Source: Candidatus Aerophobetes bacterium Ae_b3b
GTDB taxonomy: Bacteria > Aerophobota > Aerophobia > Aerophobales > AE-B3A
Assembly (NCBI GenBank): GCA_005223085.1
Contig: NJBP01000001.1
Span: 1-64,000 of the forward strand
Direction of reading: 5' to 3'
Length of the DNA: 64,000 nt
A model generated the notes under the pieces. It searched no databases. It saw nothing but the letters and a program-made list of their open reading frames with translations, and had not been told where the DNA came from. Both the position numbers and the translations under genes were made by a program. This document shows positions 46,433-55,152 of the stretch, one piece after another (position 1 is the first letter of the stretch; every line of letters starts with the position of its first letter).

Positions 46433-47449
46433 TTAAAGGAGATTCTCTTTAATTAATAACTCAGCAATCTGAATGGCGTTCAAAGCTGCTCCCTTACGAA
46501 GGTTATCAGCTACAATCCAGAGGTTAATCCCATTTTTGATTGATTTGTCTTTTCTAATTCTGCCCACAAAGACCTCATCTTTTTCTGCTGCTTCTAAAGG
46601 TAAAGGATATAGATGATCATCTATATTATCCTGCAGGATGACTCCGGGAGCTCGGGACAAAATCCTCTTTACTTGGGGTACGGAGAGTTCTTTTCCCATT
46701 TCCACGGTTACCGCTTCGGAGTGGCCAATAAATACCGGCACCCGGACGCAGGTTGCCGTTACGGCCATACGATCATCTTCCATAATCTTTTTGGTCTCGT
46801 TGGCTAGCTTTAACTCCTCTTCAGTGTAGCCATTGGGTAAAAACTGTCCTATATGGGGAATAAGATTAAAGGCAATTTGATGAGGATAAACCTCCTTTTT
46901 AATTTCTTCTCCCTTTAGCCATTGTTGGATCTGATCTTTAAGTTCCTCCATTGCTTCTCTTCCCGTTCCAGAGACTGCCTGATAGGTGGAAATGATCAAC
47001 CGTTTAATACGTGTTATTTGATGAAGAGGATTTATAGCCACCACTAACTGAATGGTAGAGCAATTAGGATTTGCAATAATGCCTTGATGATTTTCGAGAG
47101 CGTCCGGATTCACCTCAGGCACCACCAGAGGTACTCCGGATTCCATCCTGAAGGCACTTGAGTTATCCACAACAACTGAACCCTTTTTCACAGCTTGAGG
47201 AGAGAATTCTTTGGAAATTTGGGCCCCCGCTGAAAAGAGAGCTATTTCCACACCTCTGAAAGAGGCGCTACTTAGCCTTTCTACCTTCAGATTTTCTCCG
47301 CAAAACCTTAAGACTCTGCCTTCCGATCTTTCTGAGGCAATTACTCGAAGATTTCCCACAGAAAAACTGCGTTCTTCCAGGATACGTAACATCTCTTCTC
47401 CTACAGCTCCAGTTGCTCCGACTACAGCTACATTATAACCCTTGCTCAA
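46433..47449 (-). CDS. asd: Aspartate-semialdehyde dehydrogenase
   Basis: Reduces aspartyl-4-phosphate to the semialdehyde for lysine, threonine and methionine. The 338-residue protein starts with NVAVVGATGAVGEEML (NADP loop), has the catalytic cysteine Cys130 in GIIANPNCSTIQLVVA, a conserved SAFRMESGVPLVVPEVN near 98-114 and VPVFIGHSEAV near 243. It overlaps the upstream aspartokinase C-terminal ORF by four bases, so kinase and dehydrogenase are translationally coupled. Confidence 0.95.
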   Translation of the reverse strand: MSKGYNVAVVGATGAVGEEMLRILEERSFSVGNLRVIASERSEGRVLRFCGENLKVERLSSASFRGVEIALFSAGAQISKEFSPQAVKKGSVVVDNSSAFRMESGVPLVVPEVNPDALENHQGIIANPNCSTIQLVVAINPLHQITRIKRLIISTYQAVSGTGREAMEELKDQIQQWLKGEEIKKEVYPHQIAFNLIPHIGQFLPNGYTEEELKLANETKKIMEDDRMAVTATCVRVPVFIGHSEAVTVEMGKELSVPQVKRILSRAPGVILQDNIDDHLYPLPLEAAEKDEVFVGRIRKDKSIKNGINLWIVADNLRKGAALNAIQIAELLIKENLL

Positions 47450-47952
47450 GTATCGGCCTCCTTATCCAGTTCAAATTCTCTGTGAATAACTCTTACTGCC
47501 CGCTTTCCTTCTCTTTTTTTAACCGCACAAGAAATCTTTATCTCTGAGGTGCTTATCATATCAATGTTTATTCCTTCTCTACCCAGAGCAGTAAACATAC
47601 GAGCAGCTACCCCCGGGTGAGACTGCATTCCTGCCCCTACTAAGGAAACTTTGGCCATATCTGAATCGTAAATTACTTCTTTAACTTCGGTCTTTTGCTT
47701 TATCTTTCCCATAACTTCCTTAACGTCGTTCAAATCTCCTTCTTCTACGGTGAAGGAGATATCATTGGTTCCTTCTTTCGCACTACTCTGTACGATCATA
47801 TCAACATTGATGTTTGCCTCAGCCAATCCTTTAAATATGAAACCAGCCATCCCAGGCTGATCTGGTACTTGTTTAATAGTTACCTTGGCCTCTTTTTCAT
47901 TAAGGACAATCCCTGAGACGATAAAACGTTCCATAGATCCTTCTTTAATCAA
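47446..47952 (-). CDS. lysC: Aspartokinase regulatory (ACT-domain) part, separate ORF
   Basis: A 168-residue ORF equal to the C-terminal half of LysC: two ACT domains ([17 protein letters not shown]-type, here [20 protein letters not shown], near 22; [20 protein letters not shown] near 105) that bind lysine/threonine and hold the enzyme together. It starts with TTG at 47952, 7 bases after an AAAAGGAGGGG site inside the preceding ORF; ATG at 47934 is the other choice. Its frame is shifted one base from the kinase ORF. In class I enzymes the matching fragment is made as a separate beta subunit from an internal start. Confidence 0.85.
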
Positions 47953-48670
47953 TTATTGTCCCCTCCTTTTGGTTAAAGCTGGAACGAGTATGTAATCGAA
48001 CTCCATATTTTTTGGCTATTTCTACCGCTCGTAGATGGATGACCTGTGCACCTCCACTGGCTAGTTCCAGCATCTCTTCATAGGAGATGCGGGGAAGCTT
48101 TCTAGCCTGAGGAACTATTTGAGGATCAGCCGTATATACACCTTCCACATCGCTGCAAATTTCGCAAAGATCAGCTTTCAAAGCAGCCGCCAGAGCTACG
48201 GCCGTAATATCCGAGCCTCCTCTCCCCAAGGTAGTGATATCATTTTTGAGGGTAGCTCCCTGGTAGCCAGCTACTACAACGATTTTCCCCTTTTTCAGTT
48301 CCTCGAGGATCCTTCTGGTTTCAATTTTTTGAATGCGAGCCCTGGTGTGAGCCTCATCGGTAATTATCCGCACCTGAGGTCCGCTAAAGGCGATGGCAGA
48401 CTCTCCCAACCCATGAAGAGCCATGGTTAATAAAGCACAGGAAACCATTTCTCCACTGGAAAGAAGTAGATCTAGTTCCCTTTTTGGGGGATACGGGTTA
48501 ACCTGGTGGGCAAGATTAAGTAATTTATCGGTAGTATCTCCCATAGCTGAGACAACCGCTACTACTTTTTTGCCTTTCTTTTTTACCCCTACTATCCTTT
48601 CAGCAATCGCTTTAATCCTCTCCGGACAACTCAGTGAACTCCCCCCATATTTTTGTACCACCAGAGACAA
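47945..48670 (-). CDS. lysC: Aspartokinase catalytic part, separate ORF
   Basis: A 241-residue kinase domain: [16 protein letters not shown] near 4 (Lys-Tyr-Gly-Gly motif), [19 protein letters not shown] near 35, [15 protein letters not shown] near 71, [20 protein letters not shown] near 162 and [13 protein letters not shown] near 191. It ends at QKEGTIID with TAA at 47945, just where normal LysC (about 408 residues) passes into its ACT domains. The stop overlaps the second ORF by 8 bases. Together the two ORFs make a normal-size LysC. Natural split, programmed shift and mutation are all considered in the findings. Confidence 0.88.
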
Positions 48671-53877: not shown

Positions 53878-55152
53878 ATGAAGGACAAGGTAGTTCACCT
53901 AGGTTTATTTGGACTAGGTACGGTGGGAGGAGGAGTAATTGAGCTTTTGTCAAGAAAAAAGGGGAAAGACCACCATAAGTTTGTCCTGGAAAAGATTGCG
54001 GTCAAGCACTTGGATAAAAAAAGACCTGTCCCGGTTCCTTTGTATCGATTGACTGCAGATCCTAGGGAAATCTTGGCTGATCCTAAGATTGATACGGTGG
54101 TGGAGGTGATGGGGGGGATAGATCCAGCTAAAGAAATAATTTTAGAAGCTCTAAAAAGGGGTAAGAATGTAATTACCGCTAACAAGGCTCTCCTGGCCCA
54201 AGCCGGGAGTGAGATTTTCAAGCAAGCGCTGGACAGCGGGTGTTATCTAGGAGTGAGAGCATCTAACATTGCTGCTTATCGTCTTATAGAAAGTTTAATT
54301 TCCTCACCTTTCCAGTTCGAGAAATTGATTGGTATCTTTAACGGGACTTGCAACTATATTTTGACAGAGATGGAAAAAAAAGGCGAAGATTTTTCTCCCA
54401 TTCTCAAGAAAGCTCAGGAAATTGGCTATGCTGAGCAGAATCCTTCAGATGATATTGATGGTTACGATACTGCTCATAAACTAATTGTTCTACTTGGTTT
54501 AGCCCTGGGTTATTTTCCTCCGTTAGATTCTCTTTTTATAGAAGGGATTAGAAGGATCTCCCACCAAGATATTATCTTTGCCAAAGAATTGGGATATAGA
54601 ATTAAACTTCTAGCTATTGCCAAAAGAGAAGCCAGTGAGCTGGAGGCTCGTGTCCATCCTGTTCTTCTGCCGTGGGGACGAGGTCTAGCTCGTCTGGATG
54701 GGATAGAGAATGGAGTCGAGCTACGGGACGAAGTAGGAGTAGAGATAGGAATGCAGGCACCGGGAGCCGGTAAATACCCTGCTGCCACAGCAATTCTAGA
54801 AGATTTAGTTAGCGTAGCCCGGGGAAGGAAGTTAATCTATCCTCAACCGAAGAGATATCTGGCCTTTAAAAAAATGGGGGAGATAAAAACCAAGTATTAT
54901 TTAAGATTTAATGCTCTGGATGAGGCGGGGGTTTTAGCAAAAATTTCTGGAATTTTAGGTGATCATAATATAAGCATTAAGTCGGTCCTGCAAAAAGGAG
55001 AAAATGAAAAACCACCAGGGGTGGTGCCGGTAATAATCCTTACCCATCGGGCAAGAGAAGACGATATTCAGGATGCCCTTGGTAAAATAGATAATTTAAC
55101 CATAGTAAGGGGAAAATCCTTGCTGATTCGAGTAGAACAAGGAATTTTCTAG
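53878..55152 (+). CDS. hom: Homoserine dehydrogenase
   Basis: Reduces aspartate semialdehyde to homoserine, leading to threonine and methionine. The 424-residue protein has the NAD(P) loop [17 protein letters not shown], the TANKALLA ([16 protein letters not shown] near 100), [15 protein letters not shown] near 165 and a C-terminal ACT domain ([20 protein letters not shown] near 340) for feedback by threonine. The reading frame extends to TTG 53827, but ATG 53878 has an AAAAGGGATTTAGTG site and gives the standard N-terminus, so I use it. asd and lysC are on the other strand at 46-48 kb. It is directly before rpsB. Confidence 0.93.

Follow-up and report, generated by a model that had tools for sequence, protein, structure and literature searches.

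A split aspartokinase locus in Candidatus Aerophobetes, probably encoding a kinase and a separate ACT regulatory protein

Our analysis of an aspartokinase locus in Candidatus Aerophobetes bacterium Ae_b3b reveals that the catalytic domain and the tandem ACT domains are encoded by two overlapping open reading frames (ORFs) in different frames. The locus is very probably a genuine two-gene aspartokinase, derived from a class I lysC that split once, at the linker, in the ancestor of the phylum, and its two parts most likely assemble non-covalently. Sequence comparison establishes the split and its conservation, the separate initiation signals, purifying selection, and the retention of catalytic and effector residues; separate translation of the two parts and ancient fixation of the split are well supported on the same grounds.

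Aspartokinase opens lysine and threonine synthesis, and the product of asd, aspartate-semialdehyde dehydrogenase, catalyses the pathway step that follows it. The window (the whole stretch analysed, 64,000 nt of contig NJBP01000001.1) contains the following features:

47945..48670, minus strand: aspartokinase catalytic (amino acid kinase) ORF, 241 aa, TTG start, without ACT domain
47947-47945, minus strand: stop codon of the kinase ORF, TAA
47446..47952, minus strand: tandem-ACT regulatory ORF (free beta-like subunit), 168 aa
47952-47950, minus strand: TTG start of the ACT ORF, in the +1 frame relative to the kinase
47960..47970, minus strand: Shine-Dalgarno (SD) sequence AAAAGGAGGGG for the ACT ORF, within the kinase ORF
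47945..47952, minus strand: 8-base overlap TTGATTAA, comprising the ACT ORF start and the kinase ORF stop
47932..47934, minus strand: alternative in-frame ATG (Met7 of the ACT ORF), aligned with the class I beta-subunit start
46433..47449, minus strand: asd, aspartate-semialdehyde dehydrogenase, TTG start overlapping the ACT ORF stop

The original prediction of two overlapping, out-of-frame ORFs of 241 and 168 residues is correct to the base, as is its placement of the SD inside the first ORF at 47970-47960, 7 nt (ACAATAA) before the TTG. In a profile search, the kinase ORF matches positions 2-284 of TIGR00657 (303.8 bits; cut-off 208.7) and the ACT ORF matches positions 288-441; because the two ORFs match complementary parts of one profile, the break lies exactly at the kinase/ACT border, again as predicted. 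The kinase ORF ends in the linker that precedes the ACT domains, and its catalytic-domain aspartokinase motifs are intact. In a PDB search, the kinase ORF aligns with residues 1-241 of Corynebacterium glutamicum LysC (3aaw), and the ACT ORF aligns along its length with the beta subunits 2dtj and 5yei_D, the first Met of each aligning with ACT ORF Met7. The comparison with class I LysC of Bacillus made at the outset is thus apt, since Met7 corresponds in the alignment to the known start of beta.

A profile search of the genome (88.6% complete) found no second aspartokinase, and the matches elsewhere, to amino acid kinase-type proteins, are weak; the split locus therefore appears to be the sole aspartokinase of the genome, with the proviso that metagenome-assembled genomes (MAGs) of the phylum are 69-93% complete and a further aspartokinase could be missed. 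No Rfam RNA, riboswitch included, was found within the window. A homoserine dehydrogenase is located at 53887-55140 of the window, 6 kb from the split aspartokinase and on the opposite strand. The asd gene directly follows the ACT ORF in most genomes of the phylum. Three genomes (G003, G005, and G006) have no asd between the ACT ORF and a ribD-like ORF and have a lower-scoring asd at another genome position; in G003 and G006, a short stretch resembling the start of asd is present between the ACT ORF and the ribD-like ORF.

The junction is readable in 13 of the 17 Candidatus Aerophobetes genomes in our set (in G002, G004, G008, and G011, which are outside this count, the locus was not found or the kinase is cut by a contig end). 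The split occurs at the same kinase/ACT border in all 13, which represent six families. The original prediction had proposed seeking the same split in other genomes and had set against it an uninterrupted lysC in relatives, with a fresh mutation here; every readable relative in the phylum proves to be split. The arrangements are as follows: nine genomes have the same overlap, with a TTG start, a +1 frame, and a strong SD; one (G006) has an insertion of ~190 bp between the halves; and three (family f6: G013, G015, and G016) have the two genes fully apart, the kinase stop being followed by an intergenic gap and an ATG with its own SD. In G006, an intact copy of the SD and TTG lies directly before the ACT ORF, and the upstream copy is degraded (-6.9 kcal/mol). 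In family f6, the old SD is weakened (-5.7 to -8.7 kcal/mol). The SD signal thus moves with the ACT start, which fits the expectation for independent initiation. The G006 insertion (L118:1766-1951, G006:C23) carries repeated CGCTATACGCTA units, and the ACT start site (SD and TTG) is apparently duplicated at its ends.

The signals for initiation of the ACT ORF are themselves conserved. Specifically, the SD is conserved in the nine overlapping genes, where anti-SD pairing at the junction is -11.8 to -12.8 kcal/mol, compared with a mean of -5.8 in intact genes. The +1-frame TTG is kept in 10 of the 13 genomes, while a start codon is found at the equivalent place in 8 of 89 intact lysC genes (Fisher p about 3e-9, a value that overstates independence because the junction sequences are related). 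The kinase codon that overlaps the conserved TTG varies, encoding Asp, Glu, Ala, Gly, or Val, all of the form GNN. Met7 was considered as the start of the ACT ORF and is disfavoured: G013, G014, and G016 have Ile or Leu in its place, making the TTG the better candidate, and in several genomes the sequence upstream of Met7 looks, by eye, like a poor SD. TTG is itself weak as a start codon, and initiation may also take place at Met7. Judging from the overlap TTGATTAA, translation of the ACT ORF is probably coupled to termination of the kinase ORF.

Outside the phylum, the fused arrangement is the rule. Both domains are in one ORF at 90 of 90 loci from other phyla, and the sole loci of the comparison that place the domains in different ORFs, L026 and L030, are those of Aerophobetes G015 and G013, respectively. 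Among the matches listed, fused lysC is present in nearly all of about 140 further genomes outside the phylum, and in a 386-genome survey almost all extra-phylum matches, again among those listed, are in open frames of at least 342 aa. Two candidate further splits in the survey, G204 and G241, were rejected as contig ends. Other arrangements were also observed: in Clostridia/Oscillospiraceae MAGs (L101:2956-4677, and L104 at the same position), an aspartokinase catalytic domain lacking ACT domains is fused directly to aspartate-semialdehyde dehydrogenase in a 574-aa frame, and in a Chlamydiae MAG (L099:689-1465), a 259-aa aspartokinase ORF is present and no ACT domain was found in the locus.

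Both ORFs of the split locus are under purifying selection. Comparison with a same-genus genome gives dN/dS of 0.050/0.303 for the kinase and 0.031/0.232 for the ACT ORF, below 0.2 in both cases, with no relaxed selection or decay; a pseudogene is rejected on this basis. Compared with fused enzymes of equal kinase divergence, the ACT part shows the same conservation or higher (0.63 vs 0.49 in the 0.60-0.65 bin). Neither split lineage (the second is described below) shows any variation at the residues equivalent to CgAK G277, A279, Q298, N374, I375, and S381, and mutations of CgAK at A279, Q298, I375, and S381 are listed as feedback-relieving (PMC10464499). The equivalent of CgAK T361 is Ala here, as in most intact enzymes.

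A second lineage with separate genes was found in another phylum. In three survey genomes of family f76, a kinase-only ORF (257-279 aa) and an ACT-only ORF (177-183 aa) occupy different loci, in G085 at 31.5 kb and 193.9 kb of one contig, and the two genes are unlinked in five of five genomes of this phylum. In trees, Aerophobetes is monophyletic (support 0.988 for the kinase, 0.998 for ACT, and 0.999 for the concatenation), indicating one ancient fission in the phylum. Family f76 forms a separate clade, sister to the fused L009 (0.958 for the kinase; 0.967 for the concatenation), so that two independent fissions are the preferred reading. It is likely, at somewhat lower confidence than for the Aerophobetes locus itself, that independent fissions have fixed a fully bipartite aspartokinase, with no chain carrying both domains, in two bacterial phyla, that an ancestral internal beta start made fission harmless, and that in the second phylum, the regulator gene being unlinked from the kinase gene, the regulator must act in trans.

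Class I aspartokinases comprise alpha (kinase and ACT) and beta (ACT) subunits produced from in-frame overlapping genes (PMC8690038). The alpha2beta2 enzymes of this class (LysC of Corynebacterium, Bacillus, Thermus, and Pseudomonas) have the same kinase domain, the same tandem ACT domains, and a beta start at nearly the same place. However, class I LysC has an in-frame internal beta start and an alpha chain with both domains, whereas in Aerophobetes no chain carries both, and the ACT start, though retained, lies in another frame or belongs to a separate gene. The isolated beta-subunit structures 2DTJ (C. glutamicum), 2DT9, and 5YEI chain D are homologous to nearly the whole ACT ORF; unlike the Aerophobetes protein, each is the product of a lysC gene from which a full-length chain is made too, and the full-length chain for 2DTJ and 5YEI is present in the same PDB search. 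TIGR02078 (AspKin_pair, Pyrococcus) is named a putative aspartate kinase subunit by NCBIfam, but the kinase ORF scores 120.8 bits against it, below the cut-off of 242.4, and the ACT ORF has no match. Acetohydroxyacid synthase IlvB/IlvN comprises a catalytic protein and a dissociable ACT regulator encoded in one operon; a separate ACT regulator would be common to both systems, but the catalytic domain is unrelated and the likeness is an analogy only.

The best reading is that the Aerophobetes enzyme is a derivative of the alpha2beta2 class I enzyme in which the kinase-ACT alpha chain has been lost and the free beta subunit kept. We infer a path in which the ancestor would have been a class I lysC encoding kinase and tandem ACT domains, with an internal start from which a free ACT beta subunit was made in addition. 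A change of frame within the linker would then have removed the ACT part of alpha and nothing else, because the free beta subunit already existed. The kinase would now be translated by itself, and the ACT tandem would be made as its own protein from the TTG with the strong SD. A kinase oligomer and ACT homodimers would bind non-covalently, and binding of Thr and/or Lys by the homodimers would inhibit the kinase.

Three other readings were weighed against this two-component enzyme. The strongest, though unlikely, is that the kinase acts alone and unregulated and that the ACT protein has another role (e.g. regulation of homoserine dehydrogenase or DapA) or is a relic. The unlinked genes of the second phylum would suit such a reading, as would the existence of ACT proteins that lack a catalytic domain (PMC6081435), but both genes are co-retained in every readable genome of two phyla, are tightly linked in Aerophobetes, and are equally conserved, and the low dN/dS excludes a relic. 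Far less probable is programmed +1 frameshifting that yields a full alpha chain from the two ORFs, the TTG serving as the start of free beta. The +1 frame of the ACT ORF and an SD-like element upstream, as in prfB, are features that such a mechanism would share, but no slip codon is conserved (the last kinase codon is GAT, GAG, GAA, GCT, GGC, or GTC), the kinase stop is TAA or TGA, and a +1-frame stop usually directly precedes the TTG. Moreover, no fused chain can result from a simple frameshift in G006, with about 190 bp inserted between the ORFs, or in G013, G015, and G016, with intergenic DNA containing a stop and a new ATG. Of the two options in the original prediction, a kinase with a separate regulator is accordingly favoured and a frameshift-made alpha chain is not. 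An assembly error or fresh frameshift mutation in a normal lysC has a negligible probability: a one-base change at the junction would merge both frames, but 13 separate MAGs carry the same split, with SD and start that match, and purifying selection acts on both ORFs.

The literature searched (open-licence papers, which exclude most subscription journals) yielded no account of an aspartokinase whose kinase and ACT parts are separate genes; the domains are already known, and within that literature their complete separation, fixed twice, is apparently new. Split genes of this kind may be labelled truncated or frameshifted by annotation pipelines. For class I aspartokinase, a model of allostery and a target for lysine-producing strains, the described mechanism involves an alpha chain bearing the catalytic and ACT domains together. 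Altered feedback control through the split is plausible, and natural enzymes without a covalent kinase-ACT link would allow a direct test of whether feedback needs that link, and also a test of how an internal start leads to gene fission.
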